Source: a virus. From it: a stretch of DNA of 57,208 bases. The stretch covers positions 1-57,208 of IMG/VR virus record IMGVR_UViG_3300022602_002877. One strand, 5' to 3'. Positions 3,923 through 36,088 of this stretch are shown here, piece by piece; positions within the stretch are counted from its first letter, which is position 1; every line of letters starts with the position of its first letter. The notes below the pieces were generated by a model. The model made no database searches and had not been told where the DNA came from. It saw only the letters and a list, made by a program, of their open reading frames with translations. Both the position numbers and the translations under genes were made by a program.

Positions 3923-4345
3923 TTATTTGAACCAGCCTAGCTTCTCTCCGGCCGCTTTACGGCGGTCGGATTCTTCTCGACTACCGGGATAACGACTTGC
4001 CCAAATTAGTATAAGAGCAAAGAATATACTCATTCCAATAACTGCCTTGACATTATTTGTGGTAAAATAAACAATAATTAAACTACAATCCATACTTAAA
4101 AACATAGCCCATTTTGCTAGTTTAGGAAATACACGACCTTCACCCCAATTACGAATAACAGGTCCAAAGAGACGATGATTAATCATGTAATTATGAAAGC
4201 GTTCACTGCTTTTACTAAAACACCAAGTGGCTAAAAGTGCTGGAGTTGACCAAGGTAGCCCAGGCACTACTGTACCTAAATAGGCAACACCCAGAAATAG
4301 TATGCCTGCTGTAAACCAAAGTGCTTTTTTAATTTTATTGATCAT
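3923..4345 (-). CDS. ybaN: YbaN/DUF454 family inner-membrane protein
   Basis: 140 aa with three hydrophobic stretches. It carries the DUF454 signature: GVAYLGTVVPGLPWSTPALLA, then WCFSKSSERFH and NHRLFGPVIRNW. These match E. coli YbaN closely in order and spacing, and the length is normal (about 125-140). The cellular role of the family is unknown. It converges on the preceding gene with no intergenic gap, and has GAGGA upstream of its ATG. It is unusual as a phage gene and could change the infected cell's envelope (inference). Confidence 0.85.
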   Translation of the reverse strand: MINKIKKALWFTAGILFLGVAYLGTVVPGLPWSTPALLATWCFSKSSERFHNYMINHRLFGPVIRNWGEGRVFPKLAKWAMFLSMDCSLIIVYFTTNNVKAVIGMSIFFALILIWASRYPGSREESDRRKAAGEKLGWFK

Positions 4346-10960: not shown

Positions 10961-12829
10961 ATGAGCAAAGTAATCGGTATTGACCTCGGAACCACCAATT
11001 CATGCGTGGCTGTTATCGAGAATGGAACCCCCAAAGTAATTGAAAATAGCGAAGGTGCTAGAACAACACCTAGTATTGTTGCCTATGCCAACGATGAAAT
11101 TTTAGTTGGTGCCAGTGCTAAACGCCAAGCAGTTACAAATCCTAAGAATACAATTTATGCGGCTAAACGTCTAATTGGACGCAAGTTTAAAGAAGAAGCC
11201 GTACAAAAAGATATAGACCTAATGCCCTACAAAATCATCGAGGCCAAAAACGGTGACGCATGGGTACAGGCAAACGGAGATAAATTAGCACCACCACAGA
11301 TCAGTGCCGAAGTTCTTCGTAAAATGAAAAAAACAGCAGAAGACTATTTAGGAGAAGAAGTAACACAGGCTGTTATTACTGTTCCTGCCTACTTCAACGA
11401 TAGTCAACGTCAGGCAACCAAAGACGCAGGTAAGATTGCTGGACTAGAAGTACTACGTATTATTAATGAACCAACTGCCGCCGCACTAGCATACGGCGTT
11501 GATAAACAAGATAAACAAGATCGTAAAATTGCGGTCTACGACTTAGGTGGTGGTACATTTGATGTAAGTATTATTGAAATTGCCAATGTTGATGGAGACA
11601 AGCAAATTGAAGTGCTGTCAACTAATGGAGATACATTTTTAGGTGGTGAAGACTTTGACCAACGCCTAATGGACTATCTAGTTGACACATTTATGAAAGA
11701 ACAAGGTGTTGACTTAACCAAAGATGTGTTGGCATTACAACGTCTAAAAGAAGCCGCAGAAAAGGCTAAGATTGAACTTTCAAGTTCATCACAAACAGAT
11801 GTTAACTTGCCTTATGTTACAGCAGATGCTACAGGCCCTAAGCACATGAACATCAAAATCACTCGTAGCAAACTAGAAGGCCTAGTTGACGAATTGATCC
11901 AACGCAGTATTGCTCCATGTAAAACTGCTATGTTAGATGCCGGTGTTACTGTAGATGACATTGATGAAGTTATCCTAGTGGGCGGTATGACACGTATGCC
12001 CAAGGTACAAGAAACAGTTGAACGCTTATTTGGCAAGGCTCCACGCAAGGATGTGAACCCAGATGAGTCAGTTGCTGTAGGTGCCGCTATTCAAGGTAGT
12101 GTATTGGCCGGAGATCGCAAAGATGTTCTATTATTAGACGTTACTCCATTGAGCCTAGGTATTGAAACAATGGGCGGTGTGATGGCCAAGTTGATTCAAA
12201 AGAATACAACTATTCCTACAAAGGCTAGTCAAACATTCAGTACCGCGGTTGATAATCAACCTGGTGTAACTGTTAAAGCATTCCAAGGCGAACGTGAACT
12301 TGTAAAATTCAACAAGTTGTTAGGTGAGTTTAGTTTGGAAGGTATTGATCCTGCTCCACGCGGCGTACCACAAATTGAAATTACATTTGATATTGATGCC
12401 AACGGTATTATGCATGTATCTGCCAAAGACAAAAGCACTGGCAAAGAAAACAAGATTGTTATCAAGAGTAGCAGTGGTCTAACAGACACTGAAATTCAAC
12501 AGATGATCAAAGATGCTGAACTCAATGCTGAGTCAGATAAAGAGGCTCGTGAATTAATCGAAATTAAAAATAATTCCGAAGCACATATTCACAGAGTTAG
12601 AAATGATATGAAATCTGCTTCAATTGCCGAAACAGAAAAATCAGCAATTAACAGTGCAATTGTTGATCTTGAAGAAGCAATTAAAACAGATGACAAAAAG
12701 GCTATTGCTGATAAACTAAGTGCGTTATTCAATGTTAGTAATGTACTTGAAGAAGCAAAAGCTCAAACCGAACAACAAGGATCAAATGATCCAAATGTTG
12801 TAGACGCTGAAGTTAAAGAAGCGTCTTAA
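10961..12829 (+). CDS. dnaK: DnaK, Hsp70 chaperone
   Basis: 622 aa, essentially full length (E. coli 638). It starts [13 protein letters not shown], contains [25 protein letters not shown] and [11 protein letters not shown] phosphate loops, an intact substrate-binding domain, and the NVVDAE C-terminal tail. It folds and protects proteins with DnaJ and GrpE, neither of which is in the window, so host co-chaperones are presumably used. Its promoter is nearly perfect and it is followed by hsp20, suggesting one transcription unit. Phage-encoded DnaK is uncommon. Confidence 0.97.
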
Positions 12830-12887
12830 TTGTAGTGCCAATAGGTGGGCTACAAAAAATTATCTTACTTTTTAAGGAGAAAATAAA

Positions 12888-13331
12888 ATGACACAATTAG
12901 TACGTTTTGACACAAATGCTCTAAATCAACTAAACAGAGCAATGGTAGGGTTTGATCGATTCTTTGATGACTTTGAGCATCGTTTCGCAAACCAAATACA
13001 AAATAATTATCCTCCACATAACATAGCCAAATATGATGAGGATACTTATGAAATTCAAATCGCAGTTTCTGGATTTGATAAAGATGAGCTTACAGTTGAA
13101 CTTGATCAAAATAATTTGATCATCAAAGGCGAGCATGTTGATAATCAATCAGATACACTAGAATACATACATCGTGGATTGGCCGCAAGAGATTTCACAA
13201 AATCTTTTGCTCTAGCCGAACACATTGAAGTTGGTGATGTACGTATCAAAAATGGTATTCTTTACATCCAACTAAAGCGTATTATTCCCGAGTCTTTAAA
13301 ACCACGTGTTTTAAAAATTAAGGCCGAATAA
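12888..13331 (+). CDS. Small heat-shock protein Hsp20/IbpA
   Basis: 147 aa. The alpha-crystallin domain runs from about residue 35 to 130, with YEIQIAVSGFDKDELTVEL, the NLIIKGE strand, FTKSFALAEHIEV and the GILYIQLKR strand. It binds unfolding proteins for later refolding by DnaK. A strong AAGGAG precedes the ATG. Hsp20 genes are well known in T4-like cyanophages. A hairpin terminator follows immediately, so dnaK-hsp20 forms a unit. Confidence 0.92.
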   Translation: MTQLVRFDTNALNQLNRAMVGFDRFFDDFEHRFANQIQNNYPPHNIAKYDEDTYEIQIAVSGFDKDELTVELDQNNLIIKGEHVDNQSDTLEYIHRGLAARDFTKSFALAEHIEVGDVRIKNGILYIQLKRIIPESLKPRVLKIKAE

Positions 13332-13335
13332 TCCT

Positions 13336-13351
13336 GGGGGCTTCGGCCCCC
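13336..13351 (+). terminator. UUCG-tetraloop hairpin after hsp20
   Basis: GGGGGC (13336-13341), loop TTCG, GCCCCC (13346-13351). Very stable stem, followed only by a short T-poor tail, so it may act as an mRNA 3' end stabiliser as well as a terminator. Confidence 0.7.
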
Positions 13352-13354
13352 TTC

Positions 13355-13362
13355 ATTAAATA
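13355..13362 (+). promoter_or_regulatory. T4-late-like box before clpS
   Basis: ATTAAATA, one mismatch from TATAAATA, followed by five bases and then the clpS ATG (13368). This spacing would place the transcription start on the ATG. There is no ribosome-binding site. Confidence 0.5.
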
Positions 13363-13367
13363 TCATT

Positions 13368-13673
13368 ATGACAATAGAAACCGTAGTTGAAAAGAAATCA
13401 GCGACACGTAGACTTATCAAGGAGCCTTCAAAGTATAAAGTCATTATATACAATGATGATCATACTCCTGTAGACTTTGTAATAGCTATGTTAGTGATGG
13501 TATTTAAATACTCTGAATCAGCAGCCCATGATTTAACACTTGCTGTACATAATAAAGGATCAGCAGTTGCTGGAGTTTATACGCATGAAGTTGCTGAACA
13601 AAAAGCACTCGACGCTACACAAATGGCTAGATCAAATGGATTTCCTTTGGTTTTAAAAGTCGAACCCGAGTGA
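13368..13673 (+). CDS. clpS: ClpS, N-end-rule adaptor
   Basis: 101 aa. It has YKVIIYNDDHTPVDFV, the ClpS hallmark (NDDxTPxxFV), then AVHNKGSAVAGVYTHEVAE with the His and Gly of the binding pocket. ClpS delivers N-degron proteins to ClpA, not ClpX, so this gene and the phage clpX target different host unfoldases. The length is normal (about 106). It is followed 8 bases later by heme oxygenase. The start has no Shine-Dalgarno. Confidence 0.92.
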   Translation: MTIETVVEKKSATRRLIKEPSKYKVIIYNDDHTPVDFVIAMLVMVFKYSESAAHDLTLAVHNKGSAVAGVYTHEVAEQKALDATQMARSNGFPLVLKVEPE

Positions 13674-13680
13674 GGAAGAA

Positions 13681-14217
13681 TTGAGTTTAAAAGAACTAAC
13701 AGCAGAAAAACACAAAGAAGCAGAAACAACTCCGTTTATGAAAGCGGTGTTTGCTCGCACACTACCACAAGACCTATGGGTTGATTGGACATATCAAAAA
13801 TGGCTATTTTACGGAGCAATTGAAGGTGCCGCAGGTGCTAATTTATTGCTAAATGATTTGCCAGATTTGCGTAGAACTTTTTATCTATATATGGATTATA
13901 AAGAAATGAATACTGAAAATAAACAGCATTCATTCCGTACTATAGTAATTGATTATTATAACTATCTAATCTCTATTGGTAAAGAACCAGACAAAATAAT
14001 AGCACATCTATATACATGGCACATGGGAGACATGTTTGGTGGACAAATGATTAAAAAAATTGTGCCTGGAAGTCATCGTAATTTAGAATTTAGCGATCCC
14101 ATGACTTTAATGACAAACATTCGTGCCAAATTAAATGACAATATGGCAGAAGAAGCAAACGTAGCCTTTGACTGGGCAATTCGTATGATGAGGGATTATG
14201 ACAGCAGTTTGGAATAA
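13681..14217 (+). CDS. hemO: Heme oxygenase
   Basis: Cleaves heme to biliverdin, Fe2+ and CO. The 178 aa protein starts LKELTAEKHKEAETTPFM, with His11 as the proximal heme ligand, and has the distal-helix motif HMGDMFGGQM (114-123), corresponding to GDLSGG of bacterial and plant enzymes. It is somewhat shorter than typical enzymes (about 200-240). The start is TTG at 13681 with AGGAAG upstream. Its end overlaps the bilin reductase gene by 20 bases, which ties the two reactions together. Confidence 0.87.
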   Translation: MSLKELTAEKHKEAETTPFMKAVFARTLPQDLWVDWTYQKWLFYGAIEGAAGANLLLNDLPDLRRTFYLYMDYKEMNTENKQHSFRTIVIDYYNYLISIGKEPDKIIAHLYTWHMGDMFGGQMIKKIVPGSHRNLEFSDPMTLMTNIRAKLNDNMAEEANVAFDWAIRMMRDYDSSLE

Positions 14218-14866
14218 AATTGAAGAACTTTCTGAGCACATAAAAACTCAGTTTGAAAACACCGGTTGGTCTCTAGAGGATTCGGTTGATGATTACGATT
14301 GGCAAAATTCTTTGTATCAAAGTCTTCGCTATCGTAGAGCACATCTACAGGTAATAGATCGTAGAGAAACTCATAAAGTTTATATATTACATGCCACAGT
14401 ATTTCCACACTATAATGATCCAAGTCCTATTTGGGGTTTTGATGCTGTATGTGGTGCTAATAAAATAACAGGTGCGTTTCATGATTTCAGTAATGCCGGC
14501 GACACTGATCATTATATGATGAAATGGTTTGCTGAAGAAGGTAAAAAATACGGATGGACAAAACCTAGGGATTTGCCAGATTGGGCCAAACATATATTCA
14601 GTAAAAATATGGTTGCCGCAGGTAACGTACAAGAAGGTCAAGAGCTAGAAGATTTATGTAAACTAACAAAAGACAGTCTAAATTATTATTTAAAAAATGT
14701 AGGAAATAGTCAACAAGACGTAGCTGATTATCATATGGCACAGAATCGTTACTGCTACTATCAAAAACAAAATCCGCATGTTGTACGTAGTATGGTTAAT
14801 ATGGGAGTAGAAGAACATACAATTCGTCAGTTTGTGAACACAATACAATATCCAGAAACAGCATAA
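14198..14866 (+). CDS. pcyX: Ferredoxin-dependent bilin reductase, PcyA/PcyX-like
   Basis: 222 aa, within the size of the FDBR family. The core LHATVFPHYNDPSPIWGFDAV matches PcyA (LHIVMFP...PIFGADLV). His65 and Asp82 are 17 residues apart, exactly the spacing of the PcyA catalytic pair His88/Asp105. It would reduce biliverdin made by the overlapping heme oxygenase, using reduced ferredoxin. A hemO-pcyX cassette, with PcyX making phycoerythrobilin, is known from uncultured oceanic viruses, and this pair fits it. The choice of PcyX over PcyA or PebS rests on context; the product is unproven. Confidence 0.75.
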   Translation: MTAVWNKIEELSEHIKTQFENTGWSLEDSVDDYDWQNSLYQSLRYRRAHLQVIDRRETHKVYILHATVFPHYNDPSPIWGFDAVCGANKITGAFHDFSNAGDTDHYMMKWFAEEGKKYGWTKPRDLPDWAKHIFSKNMVAAGNVQEGQELEDLCKLTKDSLNYYLKNVGNSQQDVADYHMAQNRYCYYQKQNPHVVRSMVNMGVEEHTIRQFVNTIQYPETA

Positions 14867-16841: not shown

Positions 16842-16926
16842 GTAAAAAAAATAACAGCATAGTTTAACTCATGTAATGTGTGGTGTAAATAGTGTAGTAG
16901 AATCACTAGCTACAGGAGCAAAAAAC

Positions 16927-18153
16927 ATGATTAAAAAACTACTTGTTGGCCTTACTGCCGCAATAATATCCATAACGGCGTTCACCCAAACGTCCCCTAC
17001 TATAATTAACCAAAGTACCGCTTTAGGAGGTTATAGTTCTTCGTCTCTAGTTGACACTAACAGTACTTCTAATAGCGTAAGCACCGTTAACACAAATAAT
17101 GTTAATAGTGGTACCATTACCAATAATAATAATACCGCGTTAAGTGGTGGCACCACAAATGTTAACACCAACAACAATATACAGAGCGGAACCGTTACAA
17201 ATAACAATAATAATGTTAATACAATGGCTGGTTCTGTAACATACACAAATAACAATAACAATGTTCAAAGTGGTACAGTAACCAACAACAATAACAATAA
17301 TAATGTTATGAGTGGTAGTGTTACCTATACAAACAATAACGTACAAAGTGGTACAGTAACCAACAATAACAACAATAATTTGTCAGGATCTGTTACTTAC
17401 ACAAACAACAATAATAACGTAAGTACATCAACTAGTAATAACACCAACACTAATTATCAGTATGGGACAATGACTAATATTAATCAAAATACGTCCACTT
17501 CAACAAGTACCAATACTAATAATAACAACAATGTTAATACTGGCACAATGACATATAACAATAATAATGTCAATACTGGTACTATGACCAATAATAATAA
17601 CAATAACAATGTAAGTCAGAGTACGGCCACAAACAATAATAATAACGTCAATCAAACTACAGCCATTAACCAAAACATTCAAAGCGGTAGTATGACAAAT
17701 AACAATATTAACAGTAGTGACATTACCCAACGTGTTATCCAACCTCCGCCAACTGCGGTAGCACCTGCTATGATGTCAGGTGGTAACAATGACCTATGTA
17801 CAACTGGCACAAGTGGATCAGTACAAACACAGATCTTTGGCGTAAGCACAGGCGGCACAGTTCGCGATATGAATTGTGAAAGATTGAAACTAGCAGGACG
17901 TTTGTATGACATGGGAATGAAAGTAGCCGCAGTTGCTACACTATGTCAAGACCGTCGTGTTTTTGATGCTATGGCACAAGCCGGCACACCTTGCCCTTAT
18001 GAAGGCAAGATTGGTGTTCAAGCCAAAGCAGAGTGGGACGATAATCCAGACAAACTACCAAAACCTCAAGAGGCAAAAGAAGATGATACTAAGAAAAATA
18101 TTGGCCTTGGCGCTTTGCTTGGCATGGTTGTTTTTAAACTGTTCCACTTCTAA
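16927..18153 (+). CDS. Exported Asn-rich repeat protein with membrane anchor
   Basis: 408 aa from the ATG at 16927 (GGAG upstream), preferred over an earlier in-frame start because it opens on a signal peptide (MIKKLLVGLTAAIISITAF). Residues about 40-265 are imperfect 12-20 residue repeats of type NVQSGTVTNNNN and GSVTYTNNN. Such Asn/Thr/Ser repeats favour stacked beta structure as in curli-like or beta-solenoid proteins. The C-terminal region has four Cys (LCTTGT, MNCERL, LCQDRR, PCPYEG) and ends in a hydrophobic helix LGALLGMVVFKLFHF. A surface or virion-associated role is plausible; function unknown. Confidence 0.65.
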   Translation: MIKKLLVGLTAAIISITAFTQTSPTIINQSTALGGYSSSSLVDTNSTSNSVSTVNTNNVNSGTITNNNNTALSGGTTNVNTNNNIQSGTVTNNNNNVNTMAGSVTYTNNNNNVQSGTVTNNNNNNNVMSGSVTYTNNNVQSGTVTNNNNNNLSGSVTYTNNNNNVSTSTSNNTNTNYQYGTMTNINQNTSTSTSTNTNNNNNVNTGTMTYNNNNVNTGTMTNNNNNNNVSQSTATNNNNNVNQTTAINQNIQSGSMTNNNINSSDITQRVIQPPPTAVAPAMMSGGNNDLCTTGTSGSVQTQIFGVSTGGTVRDMNCERLKLAGRLYDMGMKVAAVATLCQDRRVFDAMAQAGTPCPYEGKIGVQAKAEWDDNPDKLPKPQEAKEDDTKKNIGLGALLGMVVFKLFHF

Positions 18154-23739: not shown

Positions 23740-24489
23740 GTGAAAATAGCAGTTCTTGTTCCAGGTTCTCCGAGATTTAGTAAAGAGTTTGATACATTAG
23801 TATCCCAATTAATTCCACACGAAGTAGACTGGTATTTTTATCTATGGAAAGAAACTCCAGGAGAAACTGATTCTTACGGAATGAAATTAGTAGCACCTAA
23901 TTGGAGAAACATTGATCCAAATTGGGCCTTGGAAAAAATACGTAGCAATTTACCTGCTCATCATCGTATTAAGGGATTTAAATTAGAAGATCAAAACTCA
24001 ATTGAAATTCCACATCTTGATCATCTTGTAGAAGTATATCCAGAACGAGCATGGCCTATGTTTTACAGTTTTTATCAAGTTGATTTGTTAAGACAAGAGA
24101 CTAAAGAAGAATACGATCTGGTTATACGTACAAGATGCGATATTGAAATACGCAATCAAATAAATTTTGAAGCACTTAAATTTCAATTAGCGTTTGAACC
24201 AGATTCAGTCTTTACAGCAGACAATAATAAATTTGGAAAATTTAATATTCTTATTAATGATTTTTTTGCTATTTCTTCAACAAAAAATATTGAAATTTAT
24301 TGCAATGCTGTAAATCATATTTTAGAATATAATAGGGAAGGACACATATTTCATCCCGAAACAGTTTTAGTATTACATCTAATAAAAAATAATTTACAAG
24401 TTTCTTATGTAAATTTTGATGTACATATAAGAAGTATGGGCTACGAAATAAATGGTGTATATCACTCTGATTTTGGTCAATGGGCTTGA
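23740..24489 (+). CDS. Glycosyltransferase-like protein, PRF family copy 1
   Basis: 249 aa with a GTG start next to the preceding stop. The N-terminus MKIAVLVPGSPRFSKEF, the VDWYFYLW strand and the YDLVIRTRCDIEI motif are shared with three other genes here (26924, 34165, 40784). The D-x-[DE] motif in RCDIE fits a GT-A metal site. The role is presumably glycan building; the substrate is unknown. Its 3' end overlaps the convergent GDPD gene by 13 bases. Confidence 0.6.
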   Translation: MKIAVLVPGSPRFSKEFDTLVSQLIPHEVDWYFYLWKETPGETDSYGMKLVAPNWRNIDPNWALEKIRSNLPAHHRIKGFKLEDQNSIEIPHLDHLVEVYPERAWPMFYSFYQVDLLRQETKEEYDLVIRTRCDIEIRNQINFEALKFQLAFEPDSVFTADNNKFGKFNILINDFFAISSTKNIEIYCNAVNHILEYNREGHIFHPETVLVLHLIKNNLQVSYVNFDVHIRSMGYEINGVYHSDFGQWA

Positions 24490-24938
24490 ATATAGGCACG
24501 TTCGACATCAAACACAAAGTCCGTACAAATTCCAAAACAATTCCAATTCATATTTTTAAATTCAGGATCCTTCCATTCTGGCAATACCTGAATACTATTT
24601 GAAGTAAGAGTCATATTAGGATACGTCCAAATATATCCCTGACTGGTTAGAGTGTATTCATCTGTGTTATGCCAGAAAAAATTCAATTTAGCATCAGCAC
24701 CCAACACATATAAAGCATCTATATTTTTGGCATGAATCCATAAACCAGGTTGTTCTAAAAATTCATAGTCGACTTCGTAATCTGGATTGTCATGTCCGAG
24801 CATCCATTTACCGTCAATATAACGTACATCAATTTCACAGTTGTATCCAAATTTAAGAGCCTGATTAATACGATCTGGACGATTTTCTAATTCTTTATCA
24901 GGACCTTTGAGAAGTCCCCTATGTGCTATAAGTTTCAT
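24477..24938 (-). CDS. Glycerophosphodiester phosphodiesterase-like protein
   Basis: 153 aa. It has the GDPD signature LIAHRG, ENRP, then CEIDVRYIDGKWMLGHD (Glu-x-Asp and His). Full GDPD enzymes are about 240-260 aa; this one keeps the N-terminal catalytic half and lacks the second barrel half. It might act on a glycan or teichoic-like phosphodiester; activity is uncertain. It overlaps the FkbM gene by 4 bases. Confidence 0.65.
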   Translation of the reverse strand: MKLIAHRGLLKGPDKELENRPDRINQALKFGYNCEIDVRYIDGKWMLGHDNPDYEVDYEFLEQPGLWIHAKNIDALYVLGADAKLNFFWHNTDEYTLTSQGYIWTYPNMTLTSNSIQVLPEWKDPEFKNMNWNCFGICTDFVFDVERAYIQAH

Positions 24939-25555
24939 GCTTTTTTAAAATGTAAATTAATTTCATTTGAATGTATGTCATTACTGTGTTCCACAACAAT
25001 AACAAATCCTTTAGAAGTTAAAAACTCAACCATTTCTGCTCTGGTATGATTTTCTTTATATAGCTTTACTGATTCGTCTCGAGCACATTCTACAACACCT
25101 TCTTGTATTAACGAGATATAGTCTCCCATGCCTTGTAATACCTTTAGATCACTTCCTTGTGTATCGCAATGAAAATAATCAATTTTATCAAATTGAATAG
25201 GATTTTCTTTGAACCAGGTATCTAATCTACGTACTGTAACTGTAATACTTCTGTTAAATTTAAAATCTGTCCTACCGGGCCATGTTTGATTTAAATTATC
25301 AGAAAAATTGTTAAGACTACTACAACCCCAATCGGCCTGATCTGCAATATTAAATTGTGCTGTACCATCAAAATCACTTAACGCAATCGGTTGTATTGAA
25401 TACCTATCAGCGTAAAATTTACTGCTGTCAGTTAAATGATTTATTAATTCGGGTGTCGGTTCAAATGCCCAACAATATATTCTAGGATCAATCCTAGTTT
25501 TTTCTAAACTGTCAGTACCCCAATTAGCACCAACATCAAATAATATATAATCCAT
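24935..25555 (-). CDS. FkbM-family methyltransferase
   Basis: 206 aa. The SAM motif is LFDVGANWGTDSLE, then AFEPTP, SDFDGTAQF, the VRRLDTWF motif and DYFHCDTQGSDLKVLQG, all in FkbM order. It would O-methylate a sugar or glycan. It is coupled to its neighbours on both sides. Confidence 0.8.
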   Translation of the reverse strand: MDYILFDVGANWGTDSLEKTRIDPRIYCWAFEPTPELINHLTDSSKFYADRYSIQPIALSDFDGTAQFNIADQADWGCSSLNNFSDNLNQTWPGRTDFKFNRSITVTVRRLDTWFKENPIQFDKIDYFHCDTQGSDLKVLQGMGDYISLIQEGVVECARDESVKLYKENHTRAEMVEFLTSKGFVIVVEHSNDIHSNEINLHFKKA

Positions 25556-25557
25556 TT

Positions 25558-26931
25558 TTATTCTTTATAATTCTTTAAGAAATTATCTAAATCTTCTGGA
25601 GTACCAATGCCCCACATTTGATTAATACGTTTTACTTTAATTTTTTTGCCATCTTCAATTGCTTGATTAAAAACAGGACATACATAAAATTCATTATTAA
25701 CACGAATGTTTTTAGCAATCATATCTTCTGCATATTTAACGTAATCACTACCATGCTTCCAATAATAAATTCCAACGGTGGCTTCGTTGCTGATAACTTT
25801 CTTTTCAGCAACCTCGCTTACAAATCCATTGTCGCCAACTCGAGCATAACTCCACTTAGGATGTGTCGCTTCAAATGTTAATATACCACCATCAATTTCG
25901 TCAGCGGTAAATGCGTACATACATTCATTACTGTTCCATTCTACGTATTGATCACTATTGGCCATAACTAAAGGAGCATCATTATTGATATAATCTTTTG
26001 CTAATAACGTAGAGCAAGCGGCACCTTCTGTAATACCATTTACTTGTACAATATCACATCCGGGAGCAATTAGGTTAAGAAGATATTTTAAATTATATTT
26101 TTCATAATGCTCTTGCTGAACAATAAAAATATAGTGTGCTTCTATGTTTAGATTTTCTACCACAACTTGTATCATTGGTTTACCATTCACTTCAATCAAT
26201 GGCTTTGGAAATGTATATCCTTGTTGAGCAAATCTGCTACCTGCTCCAGCCATAGGAACCAATACATTTAATTTACTATCTTTCCAAGGAATACTGTTTG
26301 TTGTCATATTTGAATTCATTTGTTGTAACCTCTTATTAATTTTATCCCATGTAACGTCATGTGAATCTTCTACCGCTAATAATACCGCTCCGCTGTCTAG
26401 TGCGCCTTGCCTGCCTATGTGACTGTCTTCTATGATTAATGTATTTTTTGGTAGAGCATTACAGGCTATCATACATTTCCAGTACATTTCTGGATAGGGT
26501 TTAGGATTTGTAACATCTTGATTACTTACATAATAATCAACATACTCCATTACTCCTATTTTCAATAGACTAAGTTTAACTGTTTCTCTAATACTGTTAC
26601 TGGCAATAGCAATTTGATAACCAAGATGTTTAAGATTAGAGAATATATCTACCAATTTATCATCTACTGGAAATTTTTTGATTAATTCAAAAGTAGCAAT
26701 TTGTTTACGTTGCCAAACCATGTCGTGATATTCAGTAGGTAAACCTTTTGATTCGCTTAATAGTTTTAATTTTTTAGTTGTGTTTAATCCATCGTAGATA
26801 GATAGATGTTCATCTCTACCAATTACATAACAGGGATCAATGCTTCGTAAGGCATCGTTTAAAGAATGATAGTGTAATTCTCTGCTTTCAATTAGTACAC
26901 CATCTAAGTCAAATATAATTAATTTATTCAT
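25558..26931 (-). CDS. HAD phosphatase fused to sugar nucleotidyltransferase
   Basis: 457 aa from the ATG at 26931. Residues 1-205 are a beta-phosphoglucomutase-like HAD domain (IIFDLDGVLIES, IASNS, NPKPYPEMY, IIEDSHIG). Residues about 225-457 are a sugar nucleotidyltransferase (LVPMAGAGSRF, FPKPLIEVNGKPMI, MANSDQYVEW). The fusion could dephosphorylate and activate a sugar phosphate in one polypeptide. The start at 26931 overlaps the previous gene by 8 bases. Confidence 0.78.
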   Translation of the reverse strand: MNKLIIFDLDGVLIESRELHYHSLNDALRSIDPCYVIGRDEHLSIYDGLNTTKKLKLLSESKGLPTEYHDMVWQRKQIATFELIKKFPVDDKLVDIFSNLKHLGYQIAIASNSIRETVKLSLLKIGVMEYVDYYVSNQDVTNPKPYPEMYWKCMIACNALPKNTLIIEDSHIGRQGALDSGAVLLAVEDSHDVTWDKINKRLQQMNSNMTTNSIPWKDSKLNVLVPMAGAGSRFAQQGYTFPKPLIEVNGKPMIQVVVENLNIEAHYIFIVQQEHYEKYNLKYLLNLIAPGCDIVQVNGITEGAACSTLLAKDYINNDAPLVMANSDQYVEWNSNECMYAFTADEIDGGILTFEATHPKWSYARVGDNGFVSEVAEKKVISNEATVGIYYWKHGSDYVKYAEDMIAKNIRVNNEFYVCPVFNQAIEDGKKIKVKRINQMWGIGTPEDLDNFLKNYKE

Positions 26932-27679
26932 CTGTTGGATCCTGCGCAATAGGTAATCCTATATGGTTGTCAGTAAATTTGGACCTACCGTAAGGTGCCA
27001 ATATTGATTTATAAGTTCCTACATCCATTTTTACTTTATTAACAGTAACTAAATGGTGTGTTAATAGATATTCCGATGCCCAATCATGACCATTATCTTC
27101 CCAATAAGAGCAAATATCAGGAATGTATTCATTCATATGATTTATTAAATCACAATAAATTTTCATTCCTTGTTTTGTACCTATTGCCAATTGATCGCAT
27201 ATTGGATACCAATTATATCCATGGCGAGGAAAACTTGGCATTACTAAGTCGTGATCTTTTAAATTTATTGTTTGAAGATCTAATGAATCTTCAAGTCTGC
27301 CATCGGGTCTAAATCTTATGTATATATCATAATCTTGATCAATTGAATCAAATGCCAATGATAAACTTTTCCACATTCCTAACCTACGTTCATAAAACCA
27401 ACGAATATTATGTTCTTTAGCAGGTTCATGATTTTTCTTAGCAGGTGGCAATTCGTAAGATGGAAAATCTATTAATTGTATTTTTGATAGATTATACTTT
27501 GGTTCAAGTATTTTTTCTATCTTACGTCTTGCTTCATCTTCGGATTGTGCCCAACTACTATTCCAAAAGGTCATGTAGAAGTCTGCTTGATCAACGTTAT
27601 ACATAGACAATTGCTTCATAAATTCTATGAAGGAGTATGTAAATCTAGGTTGTCCTCCGGTAATCAACGCAATTTTCAT
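26924..27679 (-). CDS. Glycosyltransferase-like protein, PRF family copy 2
   Basis: 251 aa. MKIALITGGQPRFTYSF at the start, ADFYMTFWN, and YDIYIRFRPDGRL in the place of the D-x-D motif of its paralogs. It is the most divergent of the four copies. It is coupled by ATGA to the methyltransferase gene upstream. Function inferred from family context only. Confidence 0.55.
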   Translation of the reverse strand: MKIALITGGQPRFTYSFIEFMKQLSMYNVDQADFYMTFWNSSWAQSEDEARRKIEKILEPKYNLSKIQLIDFPSYELPPAKKNHEPAKEHNIRWFYERRLGMWKSLSLAFDSIDQDYDIYIRFRPDGRLEDSLDLQTINLKDHDLVMPSFPRHGYNWYPICDQLAIGTKQGMKIYCDLINHMNEYIPDICSYWEDNGHDWASEYLLTHHLVTVNKVKMDVGTYKSILAPYGRSKFTDNHIGLPIAQDPTDE

Positions 27680-28239
27680 GGAACACTGATAAAGAAATGT
27701 ATTCCGTTAATCTCTCCCTGTACTCCTAGTATATCAAGAGCATCTCGAAATGCCCTTTGAATTTCAGGATCAAATGCATCATCACCGGTCATAAGTCCGC
27801 CTGAACGCATCTTAGGAAAATAATTTAATATATCTTTTTTAACTGCTTCGTAAGTATGATCTCCATCGATCATTATAAAATCAATACTGCCATCTTCATA
27901 ACGGCTAACAGCATCATCACTGGTCATTTGTATCAATGTATAATAATTTTCAACCGGCTTCATACGTTCACGAAATCCGTCAGCACTATATCCTACAAAC
28001 TCTTCAGGTTTTTCTATAGCAGAATCGGCATAATGACTCATTAAATCCATTGGATCTATGCATTCAAATTTAATATTCTTTTTGCTATTGGCAATTTCAA
28101 CTGCCATAAAAGCAGAACTGCGACCTTTAAATGATCCAATTTCTACAAATAAACTGTCCTCATCTGCCTGTTCTACTATGTCTTTGTAAATGTATTCATA
28201 GCTAAACCAGCCAGATATGTTTTGATAAAAATGTTCCAT
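27676..28239 (-). CDS. Class I SAM methyltransferase (family 24)
   Basis: 187 aa. LFVEIGSFKGRSSAFMA is the SAM motif, FECIDPMD the acidic strand and FIMIDGDHTYEAVKKDI the family-24 motif. It probably methylates a sugar in the island's product. Another class I methyltransferase with a related arrangement is at 32033. Confidence 0.72.
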   Translation of the reverse strand: MEHFYQNISGWFSYEYIYKDIVEQADEDSLFVEIGSFKGRSSAFMAVEIANSKKNIKFECIDPMDLMSHYADSAIEKPEEFVGYSADGFRERMKPVENYYTLIQMTSDDAVSRYEDGSIDFIMIDGDHTYEAVKKDILNYFPKMRSGGLMTGDDAFDPEIQRAFRDALDILGVQGEINGIHFFISVP

Positions 28240-28247
28240 TGTTTTCC

Positions 28248-29024
28248 TTAAAAGTATTGAATATTTAATCTGAAAGGATAGTTAACTTCTAACCTTTCGT
28301 GTTTTTCATTTTTACGTGTTTCAATCATCATTGTTTTACCCAATGCCAACGCAAGAGCACAAGGACTACTCATTGATGTTATAAACAATTCACTACCTTG
28401 AATAACTCGAGCCATTTCCATAAAATCTGGAGTTCGATAATGAGGGATGAACACTTTGAATGTTTCTTCAAACCATTGATGATCTTCATCCAATCCGATA
28501 AACACACCTTGTTCACTTAGTCCTCTGTCTATTAAGTTTTTCCAATTTGGACTTAATAATTGATTACCTTCTTGGTAGTGAGGAGCACGATACACTACAA
28601 TAGGCCTGCCTGGAAACTTACGAACTTCTCTACACTCCATGTAAGGATCAATTTGTAATTCTCTAAAATGATATTGTGTGTCTATTCCATTTGCCTTGGC
28701 GTGTTGATTAGAAAAGTTTCGAGGAAAGAAACCTGTTTCATGATGTAATGCAGCATCATCTAAATCGTGATCAACTTCTTCGCCGTTCCATTTTTCAAAA
28801 CTATTAATATATTTTTGATGTAACATAAACTCACGCATTACTTCATAATCATCCTCTGTCATACGACCCTTATGACGTCCTACGTCAGGCCATCCTAACT
28901 TTTCAAAGACCATTTGTTCTAAGTTATGTAATTTTAAATAGTAATCTCCGCCGCCTAAAATTTTAACAGCAACACAACTACTGAATACATCGCCTGTTGT
29001 ACCTGAATGTGAAAATGATTTCAT
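28248..29024 (-). CDS. Putative GT-B glycosyltransferase (GT9-like)
   Basis: 258 aa. The N-terminus FSHSGTTGDVFSSCVAVKIL resembles the GD-x-hydrophobic start of GT9 enzymes, and ELFITSMSSPCALALALGKTMMIE resembles their donor-binding block. It is short for the family. Moderate to low certainty about the exact family. Confidence 0.45.
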   Translation of the reverse strand: MKSFSHSGTTGDVFSSCVAVKILGGGDYYLKLHNLEQMVFEKLGWPDVGRHKGRMTEDDYEVMREFMLHQKYINSFEKWNGEEVDHDLDDAALHHETGFFPRNFSNQHAKANGIDTQYHFRELQIDPYMECREVRKFPGRPIVVYRAPHYQEGNQLLSPNWKNLIDRGLSEQGVFIGLDEDHQWFEETFKVFIPHYRTPDFMEMARVIQGSELFITSMSSPCALALALGKTMMIETRKNEKHERLEVNYPFRLNIQYF

Positions 29025-29025
29025 G

Positions 29026-29748
29026 TTATTTCTTTCTTGAATAAAAAACTACTTTGCCTGGTATTGGTGTATCTACCAATTCTATTGTAAATCCAACTTG
29101 TATTAGTAAACTAGCAAATTGTTGTTGTGTAAAATACCATAGATGTTCAATGTATTTCCAATGGTGATACCCTGCTGGATTGAAAAAATCTGGCAGATCA
29201 ATGATGGCAATACCTCCAGATTTTAGTATATCAAATACTTTATGTAATGCTGTCATTGGAGAAATCATATGTTCTACACTATCATGCATTGTAATAAAAT
29301 CATAGAAGTTATTTTGAAAATCTACTGTATCTAATGTACCTCTAATTGTAACACTATCATCACCAATATTGCTACCAGGTTCTAATCCTGTACAATCAAT
29401 ACCTTGGGCAATCGCTTCATGAACAAACGCACTATTACTGCTACCAACATCTAAACCAATCATACCAGGTTTAACATATTCTTGATATTGTTTTAATCTA
29501 AGTTCGGCAACTTTTCTATCATGATCATATCTATCTTGATAATTAATAACGCCTTTGACTTTCATATAGTCTACGTGATATTCTTTTTCATAGAATCCAT
29601 AATATTTTGCCTCGTCCCAATTATATAATTGTGCGTGAAGAACTCCGCAAGACTTACAGCCGCCTACTTCTATATTGTGTAGAGTCTCTAATTCAAAAGA
29701 GTCAGTTGCTCCACATACACATTGTTTAATTAAATTATCTTGTATCAT
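29026..29748 (-). CDS. SAM methyltransferase with N-terminal zinc ribbon
   Basis: 240 aa. The N-terminal CVCGAT and CKSCG pairs form a zinc ribbon as in sugar C-methyltransferases. The SAM domain has GLDVGSSNSAFVHEA, HDSVEHM and GGIAIIDLPD. Related enzymes methylate nucleotide sugars. It is coupled to the GT17 gene by a 4 base overlap. Confidence 0.75.
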   Translation of the reverse strand: MIQDNLIKQCVCGATDSFELETLHNIEVGGCKSCGVLHAQLYNWDEAKYYGFYEKEYHVDYMKVKGVINYQDRYDHDRKVAELRLKQYQEYVKPGMIGLDVGSSNSAFVHEAIAQGIDCTGLEPGSNIGDDSVTIRGTLDTVDFQNNFYDFITMHDSVEHMISPMTALHKVFDILKSGGIAIIDLPDFFNPAGYHHWKYIEHLWYFTQQQFASLLIQVGFTIELVDTPIPGKVVFYSRKK

Positions 29749-30584
29749 TCTCTATATAAATCCGTTACATGAAATACTGCGTCTGGAACAATCATATGTT
29801 GCCACTTGTCTAAGTTCTCTGTTATACATTTTGGGAAGTAATCATCAACTTTTACAATTTCAAAACGTTCAGAGTTAGCAAGACCGTTATGTCCGCACTT
29901 GTTTTGTACCATCCAATTGATATTGTGTTTGGCAATCAAATCTGCTCTGTCTGTTTCTGTATGAGCAAAGTTCTGAATCTTTTTAATAGCATTTGTATCA
30001 TCACCGAAGTAGGTAAAATGCCAGCCACCGTGATCAACAAATACAGTATCTTCTGGGCGTGGATTCCAAGGGAAAGTGTATTCACGTTCCATTTGTCCAT
30101 TTGTGTATACACGACCACGTGTTACCATAATATTTGGTTGCTTTGATATTTCGTATATCTTCATATAATTGATTTTATACTGAAACATTGGAATACAAAG
30201 TATGTAACGATTCCAGTCATTTTCATCTGTTTTGATCATTTCGATCATTTCAGCACGAGGAATTTCATCTAGATCGCTGGTAATAATTATATCATCTGGT
30301 TGAAGATCTTCGATGCCTTTGCTTAATGAAAAGCGTTGGTACTTTTCTCGTACCCAACTATCTTGTGTTTCAGGAAAATCATCAACCTGTACACGTTTAA
30401 TTTTATCAGCATAAGGTTTAAATCTTTCCCAGTTGTCTAATAAAATATAGTCTTTGGGTTTACCACTGTGACTCATATTTGCTTCCGCAATTACAAAGTG
30501 ATCAACTGTATCCCATAGTTCTTGTAGTCTAAACTCAAGTACATCAAGTTCATTGAAGAACGTAAAACAATCATAAACTTTCAT
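29745..30584 (-). CDS. Family 17 glycosyltransferase
   Basis: 279 aa. Strong GT17 signature: KVYDCFTFFNELDVLEFRL, FVIAEANMSHSGKPK, WVREKYQR and DIIITSDLDEIPR. GT17 includes beta-1,4-N-acetylglucosaminyltransferases; the acceptor here is unknown. The length is normal for bacterial and viral members. Confidence 0.88.
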   Translation of the reverse strand: MKVYDCFTFFNELDVLEFRLQELWDTVDHFVIAEANMSHSGKPKDYILLDNWERFKPYADKIKRVQVDDFPETQDSWVREKYQRFSLSKGIEDLQPDDIIITSDLDEIPRAEMIEMIKTDENDWNRYILCIPMFQYKINYMKIYEISKQPNIMVTRGRVYTNGQMEREYTFPWNPRPEDTVFVDHGGWHFTYFGDDTNAIKKIQNFAHTETDRADLIAKHNINWMVQNKCGHNGLANSERFEIVKVDDYFPKCITENLDKWQHMIVPDAVFHVTDLYRE

Positions 30585-30593
30585 TATTTTCCT

Positions 30594-32033
30594 TTATAAA
30601 CCTAGTTGTTGTATATAGTGATTCATCAATTGAATCCTAGTTGGATTTGGTAACGCAGGGAAATGTATTACAAAATCTCCAGGTTGCCATTGTCCACTTT
30701 CACCTAGTTGATCAATTCCCTCTACCTGATAAATGTTATAATCATAACTGTTCATTGTACGTTGTGTAACAACTTTGATTATGTCTCTATACTTAATAAA
30801 AAAATCTGCCATTGGTTGTTGATCTGGCCATTTGTTATCTTTGTACTCTTTATGCCCAATGTATAACATAAACTTTAACCATCCTCGGCCTTGTTCTGTA
30901 TTCCTAACAATAAAACATCCACCGTTAACTGTTGCTACGTCTGTAGTTACAATAACGTGATAGTCATTGTCAACGATATCTTCAAGACGAATATCATAGT
31001 TTGTAATAAGAGCATCGTTGTCTAACCACCAACACCATTCTAAATCTGGGTTGGCTTCAAATAGATCTAACATTAAAATAAACTTTTCAAACTGAATACT
31101 AACAGGATCTGTAAAGTTATCTGTTTTACAAAACGCACCATATCCGTGTTTTTCAGCATACCGTTCTTTAATGGGCCAAGACACTTCACCTAGGTCTTTG
31201 TGACTTTCATTGTACATACTAATAATAGCAAACTGTGTAGAGTCTTCGGTTTGCCAAAGTTTAGGTACGCTATCCCATAATTCATTTATATCAATGTAAG
31301 GATCCTTTCCAGATTCATCCATGATATGAAATGCCAATCCGGGAATAGGACTAAACAATGACACATCATCTTTTATCCAAACTTGATTTATACTTTTATT
31401 TTCAACCCAATCAGCTTTTTGTTTTGTTAATGTTACTACATCTTGAAAGTGATTGCGATATTTTGTGTATATTTTTTTAGATGCTAGGCAAGTATATGTG
31501 GTATGCTGTACGCTTCTGTAATGTCTGGTTGGACCTAACAATAGATAACTGGGATAGATATCCATTTTGTAACGCCAAATATCATCATGCGGATTGACAG
31601 CAACCATTTTGCCAGTGATTTTTTCAAAAGCGTCAACTGTATCCAACATGTCTTGTATGGCTTCTGGATAATGTAGGTAGTCATCTTCGATGTGATACCA
31701 AAGATCAGTTGCTTCTTTTTCCACAAGATCGTATACACAATCCATTGTATGGCCATTGCCTGTGCCATTTGTTACAGGGACAAATTCAGCAGGGAAGCGA
31801 CAACGACTTACAATTTGTTTGATGTCTTCGACTGCGTCTGGTGTACTATGATCGTCTAAAACAACTAATTTTATTGTATGACCTTTTACTTGATTAATAG
31901 AATTTACAAGACTACTTAGACAAGTATTGGTTAATTGATGTTTAGGTACTTTAATATAACGCCCGGAACCAGTATCATTGACCATATTAACCGACGTACA
32001 GGTACGAGATATGATTAATAAATTCCGACCCAT
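30594..32033 (-). CDS. Bifunctional glycosyltransferase, GT2-like + GT34-like
   Basis: 479 aa. The N-terminal half (1-230) is GT2-like (KLVVLDDHSTPDAV, YHIEDDYLHYPEA). The C-terminal half (about 265-479) is GT34-like: IKERYAEKHGY, WCWWLDNDALI (DxD region), VNGGCFIVRN, WPDQQPMADFF and GDFVIHFPAL. Two transferases in one chain imply two successive sugar additions. It shares one base with the next methyltransferase gene. Confidence 0.75.
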   Translation of the reverse strand: MGRNLLIISRTCTSVNMVNDTGSGRYIKVPKHQLTNTCLSSLVNSINQVKGHTIKLVVLDDHSTPDAVEDIKQIVSRCRFPAEFVPVTNGTGNGHTMDCVYDLVEKEATDLWYHIEDDYLHYPEAIQDMLDTVDAFEKITGKMVAVNPHDDIWRYKMDIYPSYLLLGPTRHYRSVQHTTYTCLASKKIYTKYRNHFQDVVTLTKQKADWVENKSINQVWIKDDVSLFSPIPGLAFHIMDESGKDPYIDINELWDSVPKLWQTEDSTQFAIISMYNESHKDLGEVSWPIKERYAEKHGYGAFCKTDNFTDPVSIQFEKFILMLDLFEANPDLEWCWWLDNDALITNYDIRLEDIVDNDYHVIVTTDVATVNGGCFIVRNTEQGRGWLKFMLYIGHKEYKDNKWPDQQPMADFFIKYRDIIKVVTQRTMNSYDYNIYQVEGIDQLGESGQWQPGDFVIHFPALPNPTRIQLMNHYIQQLGL

Positions 32034-32755
32034 TATTTTTTACTCACCAAAGCGATTAAGTATCCATCATGCCAGTCACTGTATTGATGCGACACAACAG
32101 GATGTCCATCGCCAATGTACGTAGAAATTTCAATTTTAGAAAGTACTGTATGTCCAACATGAGCTAGTGCTTCTTCTGTACCCCTGCGTACAATTTCCCA
32201 ATTGTAATCATCAACAATAAGTACATATTGGTCATCAAGTGCTTCTTGTACAAGCTCAATACCATCATATTGATCTTTTTCAAAGTGAGGACCATCGAAC
32301 ATATAGATATTATATTTGCCTATACTGCTATAGTCAACTGCTCTAAAATCACTTTCGATAAACTTAAAATCAACATCTGGTGTTATTACCCGATTAATAT
32401 TACCCATAAACTGTTCTTTTGGCCCACCAAACTCACTCCAATTATCAATACAGGTCGCTTTAACTTTGTTTCCCCAGATTGCCGAACAGGCAGTACTTCC
32501 GGCATGACTACCAATTTCCAAATAACGTGCGTCTGGAGTGGTAGCAACCAAATTATTAATAAAATAACGATACTTTTTTCCACTCATACCTTCCATGTAT
32601 CTAATCCAATCTGGAAGTTTATGATCCATTGCTAACGCGGCTAACCAAGCGTTTGTTATCAATTCTGCTTCGGGACTAGTCCAGTCACCGTATAAATTAA
32701 TTGCTGTTTCTTCTTTATTGATTACGTCTCTTATAATTGTGGGCGTTCTACTCAT
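32033..32755 (-). CDS. Class I SAM methyltransferase
   Basis: 240 aa. YLEIGSHAGSTACSA is the SAM motif, ATCIDNW the acidic strand, NIYMFDGPHFEKDQ and LIVDDYNW follow. It is the first gene of the minus-strand run. GAAGGAAC before the ATG and a TTTAAATA box further upstream could drive the island. Confidence 0.72.
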   Translation of the reverse strand: MSRTPTIIRDVINKEETAINLYGDWTSPEAELITNAWLAALAMDHKLPDWIRYMEGMSGKKYRYFINNLVATTPDARYLEIGSHAGSTACSAIWGNKVKATCIDNWSEFGGPKEQFMGNINRVITPDVDFKFIESDFRAVDYSSIGKYNIYMFDGPHFEKDQYDGIELVQEALDDQYVLIVDDYNWEIVRRGTEEALAHVGHTVLSKIEISTYIGDGHPVVSHQYSDWHDGYLIALVSKK

Positions 32756-32942: not shown

Positions 32943-33392
32943 ATGTCAGTTACATTGGCAAATTTAGGAAGTGCGCTAGCCGGCGAGAGCCAAGCACACG
33001 TTAAGTATAGATACTTCGCAAAGATTGCTCGCGAGGAAGGATTCGAAGATGTTGCTAAACATTTCGAACACACCGCAGATCAAGAATTGCTACACGCATG
33101 GGGTCATTTGGAATTACTAATCGGTAAGCCAACGACCAAAGAATGTTTGGAAAAAGCCATCGAAGGTGAAACATACGAGTTCACAGAGATGTACCCACAG
33201 TTCCAATCGATTGCTATCAGCGAAGGCGAATTGGAAGCCGCTAAAGAAGCTGCAAGCCAAATTGAAGAAAGCAAAGAACATGCCGCACAATTTGCCGCAG
33301 TTCTAGCCAAAGCAGAGAAACGTTTCAATGCTCTTAAGAAAGTTGAAGAACGTCACGCAAAAGCATATCAAGCAGTATTGGAGGCACTATAA
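32943..33392 (+). CDS. Rubrerythrin, diiron domain only
   Basis: 149 aa four-helix bundle with the diiron ligands in AGESQAHVKYRYF, EHTADQELLHAWGH, EGETYEFTEMY and EERHAKAYQ (ExxH pattern). It reduces peroxide using electrons from rubredoxin. Classical rubrerythrins carry a C-terminal rubredoxin domain; here that domain is a separate gene overlapping by one base. Signs of gene fission or of a two-gene system. Confidence 0.88.
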   Translation: MSVTLANLGSALAGESQAHVKYRYFAKIAREEGFEDVAKHFEHTADQELLHAWGHLELLIGKPTTKECLEKAIEGETYEFTEMYPQFQSIAISEGELEAAKEAASQIEESKEHAAQFAAVLAKAEKRFNALKKVEERHAKAYQAVLEAL

Positions 33393-33526
33393 TGAAACCA
33401 GAACATGTATGCGTAGTATGTGGACATGTCCACGATGAAGAAAAAGAAGGTGTATGGGAAAATTTACCAGAGGACTTTACTTGTCCAGAATGTGGAGTCG
33501 GTAAAGACGAATATGAAGTTCTTTAA
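33392..33526 (+). CDS. Rubredoxin-like protein
   Basis: 44 aa with the two FeS4 knuckles CVVCG (7-11) and CPECGVGKDEY (34-44). It is slightly short for rubredoxin (about 52). It starts in the stop of rubrerythrin (TAATG) and overlaps the following gene the same way. It presumably supplies electrons to the diiron protein. Confidence 0.85.
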   Translation: MKPEHVCVVCGHVHDEEKEGVWENLPEDFTCPECGVGKDEYEVL

Positions 33527-34164
33527 TGAAATATAATAGAAACATTGAACATGTTTTTTCAACTCCCTTATTTGGCACATCATTTGATAATTTAGAAATT
33601 TTCAATAAATGTGCTGACGCTGTTCTTAACCTGTTATCAGAAGAACAGCGTCAGGGATTGTCCATAACTGGAAGTACTGCCACAGATGATAACCTTAATA
33701 CCTTGGCAGAATTTCAAGATTTAGTCAAGTTAATTGATAAAGAAATTGAATTTTTATTTGAAGAACATTTAGGATTAGATAAAAATGATACTCACATGAC
33801 TTGTATGTGGAGTAACATTCAGACAAGGAGAAGCAAACACATTATGCATTCTCATCCTAATGCTTTTTATTCAGGTGTTGTATATCTTGCCATTCCTGCT
33901 GGAAAGGAACATATTGCTGGTGATATAGTGTTTTTAGATCCTCGTTTAGGAAACCTTACACACGCGGTTGATTATAAAAAATCTAATTCGTTATCAGACC
34001 ATACAATATCTATAAATCCACATACTGGAATGTTAATACTTTTTCCAGGCTGGCTTCAACACTGTACAGACATCTGTATGTTAGACGAAGGCGAGTATAG
34101 AATTTCGTTGAGTTTTAATTACATCCTAGACAAGTGTAATAAACCAACGCAAAAATTAAATTGA
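33526..34164 (+). CDS. 2OG-Fe(II) oxygenase-like protein (TIGR02466 type)
   Basis: 212 aa. FSTPLFGTSF start, MHSHPNAFYSGVVYL, GDIVFLDPR, HTGMLILFPGWLQHCT and YRISLSFNY give the His...His...Arg pattern of the TIGR02466 group common in T4-like marine phages. Substrate unknown. Coupled to rubredoxin by TAATG; it abuts the convergent gene. Confidence 0.75.
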   Translation: MKYNRNIEHVFSTPLFGTSFDNLEIFNKCADAVLNLLSEEQRQGLSITGSTATDDNLNTLAEFQDLVKLIDKEIEFLFEEHLGLDKNDTHMTCMWSNIQTRRSKHIMHSHPNAFYSGVVYLAIPAGKEHIAGDIVFLDPRLGNLTHAVDYKKSNSLSDHTISINPHTGMLILFPGWLQHCTDICMLDEGEYRISLSFNYILDKCNKPTQKLN

Positions 34165-34906: not shown

Positions 34907-36040
34907 CTATTTATATAGCCCTAGATTTGTAAAGTTTTGATAGAAAGCATTTACACCCCAGGATCCGTAATCTTGAGAATAATTGTCCCCGTGTTTATAT
35001 TCTTTAGACATTTCTATCATTTGTACGAACTTGGGGTTTGATCGTGCCTTCTCAAAATTAATACGGCCACGTTCTACAGCCATATTCCAAAAATCTGTAT
35101 CGTAAACTGACCCGGCATAGTAATGTAACATTATGACATTTTCTATTTCTTTTAATAAATCAGTGTACTCTTGATTTACCTGTTCTACAGTTTTAGCACC
35201 AGTCCAAAGATCAAATGCCCTGCGTTGTATACCATCCATGGTTGATATTGATGTTGCTTCTAGAGGTTCTAGAAAGAAACTGGCGTTGCCATTGTAGGCA
35301 ATCCTATCTGTAAAGTTCTGTTGTCGGTAATAGTTTTTGAATGTAAATGCGTTTGTGGTAGTGCTAGGAGTTAAATTGTACTGTTCAAATATGTTTTTTA
35401 TATCTTGTTGTACTTCTTCTAGAGTGTTGATGGTATTGTTATACATGTACCCAATACTGCATCTATTCTGTAACGGAATACCAAATACCCAACCGTAGGG
35501 TCTAGCAATGGTAAGCGTGTGTTGAAATTGTGGATAGTCCCAAAAGCATTGATTTACATACACAGAGTTAACAGGAATAGAATCCAACAAGTTATATTCT
35601 GTGTAGTCACTAGGTCGGCCCGAACAGTCCATGACAAAATCAGAGTCAACTTGATCAGCGGTGACATTCTTTTCAACAATTTTTATCCTAGATTCAGATG
35701 ATAATTTATCTAAAATGTATTTTTGTAATCCAAGAGCATTAAAATGATAACCAGCATGTGGTGGCATGAATCCGTGGAAGAAGTCATGCCCATCGCCCCA
35801 TCCAGATTTCAATATCCCATGTTTCATGGTGCCGTTAATTTTTTCTAGATCTTGATGATAGAAACCTAAATTGGCCTGTAGTGCTCTGGGCATTACAAGA
35901 TTAGAGCCTTCGCCCACTGCCTGTGGAGGAATAGCAGGATCGTAGTACCAGGTTATTTCGCAATCACTATAACGAAAAAAATGTGTTACTGCTAGACTAC
36001 CGGCTGTGCCATTTCCTATAATTGCTATTTGTGCTGTCAT
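34907..36040 (-). CDS. Tryptophan-halogenase-like flavoprotein
   Basis: 377 aa from the ATG at 36040. The dinucleotide motif is IAIIGNGTAGSLA, followed by AVGEGSNLVMPRAL (halogenase GVGE-type loop) and GWVFGIPL in place of the usual W-x-W-x-I-P, with the second Trp changed to Phe. EPLEATSISTMDG matches the family C-terminal block. It is shorter than PrnA-like enzymes (about 500-540). A flavin reductase is not visible here. It may halogenate a small molecule or protein residue. Confidence 0.7.
   Translation of the reverse strand: MTAQIAIIGNGTAGSLAVTHFFRYSDCEITWYYDPAIPPQAVGEGSNLVMPRALQANLGFYHQDLEKINGTMKHGILKSGWGDGHDFFHGFMPPHAGYHFNALGLQKYILDKLSSESRIKIVEKNVTADQVDSDFVMDCSGRPSDYTEYNLLDSIPVNSVYVNQCFWDYPQFQHTLTIARPYGWVFGIPLQNRCSIGYMYNNTINTLEEVQQDIKNIFEQYNLTPSTTTNAFTFKNYYRQQNFTDRIAYNGNASFFLEPLEATSISTMDGIQRRAFDLWTGAKTVEQVNQEYTDLLKEIENVIMLHYYAGSVYDTDFWNMAVERGRINFEKARSNPKFVQMIEMSKEYKHGDNYSQDYGSWGVNAFYQNFTNLGLYK
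34908..34915 (-). promoter_or_regulatory. T4-late-like promoter, leaderless
   Basis: TATAAATA on the minus strand, five bases (GTACT) before the ATG of the gene at 34165-34902. It lies in the last codons of the halogenase-like gene. Confidence 0.6.
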
Positions 36041-36045
36041 AGCGA

Positions 36046-36053
36046 TATTTATA
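36046..36053 (-). promoter_or_regulatory. T4-late-like promoter, leaderless
   Basis: CTATAAATA on the minus strand (36046-36054), five bases (TCGCT) before the ATG at 36040. It supports the choice of that start. Confidence 0.62.
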
Positions 36054-36088
36054 GGGCAAGTTTGGTGTTGTAAAAAAACAACAAGTAG

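Follow-up and report, generated by a model that had tools for sequence, protein, structure and literature searches.

A phage heme oxygenase-bilin reductase cassette with a PcyA-like reductase that has lost its product-setting glutamate

The ferredoxin-dependent bilin reductase (FDBR) encoded next to a heme oxygenase in the phage DNA analyzed here is a PcyA-like phage enzyme that has lost its glutamate at the position of PcyA Glu76. The whole stretch, hereafter the window, has 57,208 bases and corresponds to bases 1 to 57208 of the 90,668-base IMG/VR record IMGVR_UViG_3300022602_002877. We see about an even chance that the two genes form an active pair leading from heme via biliverdin to a bilin, in which the reductase, probably unable to reduce the 18-vinyl group, would make an A-ring-reduced bilin of the phytochromobilin type or PEB, and not PCB. 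The hemO-FDBR cassette is not new: such pairs have been published for marine phages and, together with alaS, for freshwater phages (PMC11480375), and they are very common in aquatic phages. What is new here is that the product-setting acid has been lost naturally, that the cassette is mosaic and that it lies in a conserved clpS/hsp20 context.

The DNA comes from a tailed phage, as is confirmed by its tail-fibre proteins and by a clamp loader of the T4 type. The best match of the clamp loader is to the large phage PA5oct and its relatives (56%), a kinship which suggests that the record is a portion of a large phage genome and which says nothing on the host. Interspersed with open reading frames between positions 36922 and 47278 are 25 tRNA genes, for all amino acids except proline; the "full tRNA set" of the first-pass annotation is thus one amino acid short, no proline tRNA being found in the window or in the remainder of the record. 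ClpX is encoded at positions 122 to 1357 (NCBIfam equivalog score above the cut-off), alongside ClpS in the record. A DUF454 family protein at 3923 to 4345, on the minus strand, occurs too in the cassette regions of two other contigs (L254 and L229), and a 425-residue protein with long Asn-rich repeats, to which no family match was assigned, lies at 16876 to 18153. Methyltransferases, glycosyltransferases and a HAD/nucleotidyltransferase fusion encoded on the minus strand at 24477 to 32755 resemble a surface-sugar pathway. A tryptophan-halogenase-like flavoprotein (34907 to 36112) is found near a 2OG-Fe(II) oxygenase (33526 to 34164) and a rubrerythrin-like protein (32943 to 33392).

The hemO gene (13681 to 14217, plus strand) starts with TTG where its relatives have ATG, and it encodes 178 residues. 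Its product combines the profile, proximal His, GDxxGG motif and fold of the HO-1/HmuO type: it scores 59.3 bits against Pfam Heme_oxygenase (PF01126; cut-off 23), matches HmuO among PDB sequences (6.7e-10), and its AlphaFold model (pLDDT 95) has a fold matching HmuO, HO-1 and HO-2. By alignment with His20 of HmuO, the proximal heme ligand is His11 (codon at 13711 to 13713), and the distal-helix motif GDMFGG (residues 116 to 121; 14026 to 14043) stands opposite GDLSGG of HmuO. Across 42 phage HemO homologues, His11, Gly116, Asp117, Gly120 and Gly121 never change while Met118-Phe119 vary, so that the two features picked out by the first-pass annotation hold, these two residues excepted. The protein is predicted to cleave heme to biliverdin IXalpha; vHemO of phage CB_2 is active (PMC11480375).

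As had been noticed before, the reading frame of the FDBR (14198 to 14866, plus strand) overlaps that of hemO by 20 bases (14198 to 14217), and this overlap recurs in relatives. The FDBR gene starts with ATG and encodes 222 residues. Its product has both a family profile score above the cut-off (Pfam Fe_bilin_red, PF05996; 54.1 versus 31 bits) and the FDBR fold. The best PDB sequence match is PcyX (5OWG, 6e-47), and the AlphaFold model (pLDDT 93) matches PcyA E76Q (3i95) with a Z of 24.0 and PcyX (5owg) with a Z of 22.6. His65 (codon at 14390 to 14392) and Asp82 (14441 to 14443), 17 residues apart, align with His88 and Asp105, the PcyA catalytic pair with which they had been equated, and are invariant in 48 aligned sequences; the pair is common to PcyA and PcyX and hence does not distinguish them. 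Nearly all residues conserved in the clade are retained. Between this FDBR and its nearest relatives, differences at second codon positions are well below those at third positions, which indicates that the gene is under continuing constraint.

What separates PcyA from PcyX is the position held by Glu76 in the former and Asp55 in the latter (PMC10151467, PMC11480375). It was located in PcyX by an offset of 8 between the sequence and structure matches, residue 63 of the 5OWG chain being number 55 of the entry. In the window FDBR it is Gln51 (codon CAG, 14348 to 14350), neither Asp nor Glu. Among 104 distinct viral FDBRs, a tally that leaves out cyanophage PcyA and the references, the position holds Glu in 64, Asp in 21, Ser in 13, Asn in 4, and His and Gln in one each. 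The only Gln is that of the window, and the only His (codon CAC) belongs to its closest FDBR relative, L095 (69% identity), with which it also has Ile53, Thr157 and Gln217 in common, at positions where the Glu-bearing clade is otherwise near-uniform. The scan gave no FDBR closer than L095 that would extend this Gln/His subclade, and a search for further contigs of this phage, with which to confirm the CAG codon, found none. Ser or Asn occupies the position in the FDBRs of L033, L034, L035, L043 and L206 to L215; the published work consulted gives no product for such variants.

Maximum-likelihood FDBR trees, one of them of 98 rows, were run with and without the Glu76 column; they do not include the alphaproteobacterial branch of PcyA. 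In both trees, the phage FDBRs form three groups: a Glu clade, a clade with Asp to which PcyX and Mosig belong, and a group with Ser or Asn (the Ser/Asn group). The window FDBR is sister to L095 (support 100/98, and 98/98 with the site masked) and is nested in the Glu clade, also when the site is masked (100/99 for the 45-row set). The glutamate was thus probably lost in an ancestor shared with L095. Phylogeny against PcyA, PebS and PcyX, the check proposed by the first-pass annotation, places the protein within the FDBRs, in the phage Glu clade. Its filing as a hemO-pcyX pair finds no support, since grouping with PcyX was rejected (p-AU 0.00019; 0.00011 with L095 included) and Gln51 stands in place of Asp55. 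Assignment to PebS was also discarded: PebS lies on a far outside branch, and the window FDBR has His65 where PebS of P-RSM6 has Asn. Compared with PcyA, it has the His88/Asp105 pair and lacks an equivalent of Glu76. In one genome-contig scan, the only bacterial relatives were a cyanobacterial PcyA and an FDBR fragment with a stop in the match on a Bacteroidetes MAG contig (L141, CANHDN010000108.1), which may stem from a phage and have been binned with the MAG; plasmids gave no match.

The enzyme might nonetheless function as a canonical PcyX, forming PEB from biliverdin in a four-electron reduction via 15,16-dihydrobiliverdin, if Gln51 replaces Asp55 or if Asp55 is dispensable. PcyX is its highest PDB sequence match, the arrangement with hemO is that of marine phages, and PEB can be made with other residues at the site (pre-3, PMC10151467); against this, the protein falls outside the PcyX clade and lacks the PcyX-specific Asp55, and we regard such a function as possible but improbable. 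The marine hemO-pcyX cassette (PcyX_EBK42635, 5OWG; Mosig) resembles ours in the overlapping order of hemO then FDBR, the PcyA-like fold and the His/Asp pair. However, PcyX_EBK42635 and Mosig carry Asp55 and belong to a different clade, the Mosig FDBR is 39% identical to that of the window, and the neighbours in Mosig are 2OG-Fe(II) oxygenases and a ferrochelatase instead of clpS, hsp20 and dnaK.

Our preferred reading is an auxiliary metabolic cassette in which HemO would split the heme of the host into biliverdin IXalpha, iron and CO. The overlapping FDBR would reduce the biliverdin, taking electrons from a ferredoxin-type donor of the host. This FDBR belongs to the phage PcyA-like (AX) clade but has diverged: it has lost the carboxylate proton donor to the 18-vinyl group (Glu76 to Gln51), lacks the PcyX Asp and retains the His/Asp pair. 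It would reduce the A-ring and then either stop, with a phytochromobilin-like product, or proceed to PEB; PCB would not be made efficiently. Motifs, predicted folds and relatives all argue for the heme-to-biliverdin-to-bilin route on phage enzymes put forward in the first-pass annotation. The product is predicted from known enzymes: reduction of the 18-vinyl group depends on Glu76, and phytochromobilin and PEB are made by pre-PcyA enzymes, which lack this residue (PMC10151467, PMC13193486). Pre-PcyA proteins (Rockwell et al. 2023, PMC10151467) thus work without Glu76; unlike the window FDBR, which retains His65, they also lack His88. PcyA E76Q (3i95) has Gln at the same position and is the top structural match, tied with the wild type (Z 24.0 versus 23.9), but it is laboratory-made and only about 21% identical to the window FDBR. 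Hagiwara et al., in J Biol Chem 2010, reportedly found that this variant drops exo-vinyl reduction and retains A-ring reduction.

PCB synthesis of the PcyA type could have been retained despite Gln51, as would be expected from the Glu clade mates. The FDBR of phage CB_2, without Asp55, makes PCB, while PcyX makes PEB (PMC11480375). Nesting in the Glu clade and the retention of His65, Asp82 and nearly all clade-conserved residues favor PCB, but Glu76 is regarded as the first proton donor and as essential for the PcyA reaction (PMC9800206), and it is described as particular to PcyA (PMC10151467), so that we consider this outcome unlikely. Compared by its published description, the freshwater hemO-pcyA-(alaS) cassette of the CB_2 type (Wegner et al. 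2024, PMC11480375) is similar in pairing a phage hemO with a PcyA/X-type reductase devoid of Asp55, and differs from that of the window, which has Gln at the Glu76 position. No alaS match was found in the record, itself a fragment; 5-aminolevulinate synthase genes are present in contigs related to the window. Since the acid at the Glu76/Asp55 site is lost, the product cannot be read from known enzymes, and FDBR regiospecificity is in general not reliably predictable from sequence (PMC13193486). Our prediction of an A-ring-reduced bilin hinges on a single residue seen in a single metagenome contig, and compensating residues elsewhere in the protein could restore PCB or PEB formation.

The electron donor likely comes from the host, as no match to the 2Fe-2S ferredoxin family was found in the record or in 18 relatives. 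The record has no match to the phytochrome PHY or phycobiliprotein families; phycobilisome matches in relatives are below threshold, lie within very long open frames and look like chance. For the phage, the likeliest benefit would be heme or iron turnover, or else a chromophore supplied to a photoreceptor of the host.

In IMG/VR, a profile-type scan retrieved at least 595 contigs encoding FDBR relatives. The hemO relatives found are nearly always followed by the FDBR gene, usually with an overlap of 8 to 26 bases, and the recurrence of this order across IMG/VR excludes chance. Among deposited phages, both proteins were matched only by Pelagibacter phage Mosig, the PcyA genes of cyanophages being distant. 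The window cassette is mosaic. Its hemO shares 84% identity with the hemO of L062, next to which it also falls in the tree (95/92), while the FDBRs of the two are 58% identical; a forced grouping of hemO with that of L095 was rejected (p 0.0009), as was one that joined the FDBR to the L062 group (p 2e-8). The different nearest kin of the two genes, both strongly supported, show that one gene was exchanged between related phages.

The same contrast in identity could suggest that heme breakdown is the useful reaction, for iron release or heme removal, and that the FDBR is a mere biliverdin sink or is decaying. The record does contain iron-using genes (the 2OG-Fe(II) oxygenase and the rubrerythrin-like protein), and the bilin acceptor families looked for were not found. 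Yet the FDBR keeps all invariant residues, is under constraint and follows hemO in nearly all relatives, and mosaicism explains the contrast, which makes this explanation quite doubtful. Finally, Gln51 is highly unlikely to be an assembly or sequencing error for Glu, even though CAG is known from one contig and differs by one base from the GAG of 22 relatives, because the sister sequence L095, from a separate dataset, likewise lacks Glu and has the three other distinctive residues in common with the window.

Upstream of hemO on the same strand, family matches identified the three neighbours named by the first-pass annotation: dnaK (10961 to 12829; PF00012 and NCBIfam DnaK equivalog), hsp20 (12888 to 13331; PF00011) and clpS (13368 to 13673; PF02617, 97.9 bits). 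Only 7 bases separate the clpS stop from the start of hemO, and this gap together with the hemO/FDBR overlap suggests that clpS, hemO and the FDBR gene may be translationally coupled. Of 97 distinct loci that extend far enough, 60 have clpS upstream in the same orientation and 60 likewise have hsp20; dnaK is upstream in 11 of 30. The order hsp20-clpS-hemO-FDBR, often with dnaK just upstream, is found in the window (10961 to 14866) and in L002 to L017, L031, L033 to L035, L039 and L254, and is conserved in one large phage lineage. The clpS/hsp20 association spans most of the Glu clade and the Ser/Asn group and is absent from others. A universal link between hemO and clpS was discarded: ClpS occurs in 19 of 19 contigs of one set, mostly of this lineage, but went undetected in 18 other contigs with the cassette and in 5 cyanophages. 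The "broad genomic context" proposed earlier is therefore real, as a property of one phage lineage. Deposited phages rarely encode ClpS, which at the sensitivity used turned up in 8 of 50,697 records. These counts do not prove a functional link, since the contigs share ancestry.

In both Salmonella and chloroplasts, GluTR/HemA is among the substrates of Clp, and in chloroplasts it is bound by ClpS1 (PMC7966870). A joint role of clpS, hsp20, hemO and the FDBR gene in heme control is offered as a hypothesis only. We found no report of the combination of phage, ClpS, Hsp20 and bilin in the open literature, which does not mean that none exists. A fuller proposal is a long shot, in which the naturally Glu76-less FDBRs of the window and L095 would be phage two-electron A-ring reductases of the phytochromobilin synthase type, and hsp20-clpS-hemO-FDBR would be a heme-control module whose phage ClpS would also direct the Clp protease of the host in its action on the heme pathway.

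Bilin synthesis by phages has been termed enigmatic (PMC11480375), and our findings bear on the question of why phages make bilins when their hosts may lack phycobilisomes. The linkage with clpS and hsp20 in one large lineage, of which we found no mention in the published reports consulted, provides a lead on function. Phage enzymes vary at a largely product-setting position (Glu, Asp, Ser and Asn, and here Gln or His), in patterns that track the tree. These natural site variants constitute a ready panel with which to test how the product changed and whether phages require a particular bilin.
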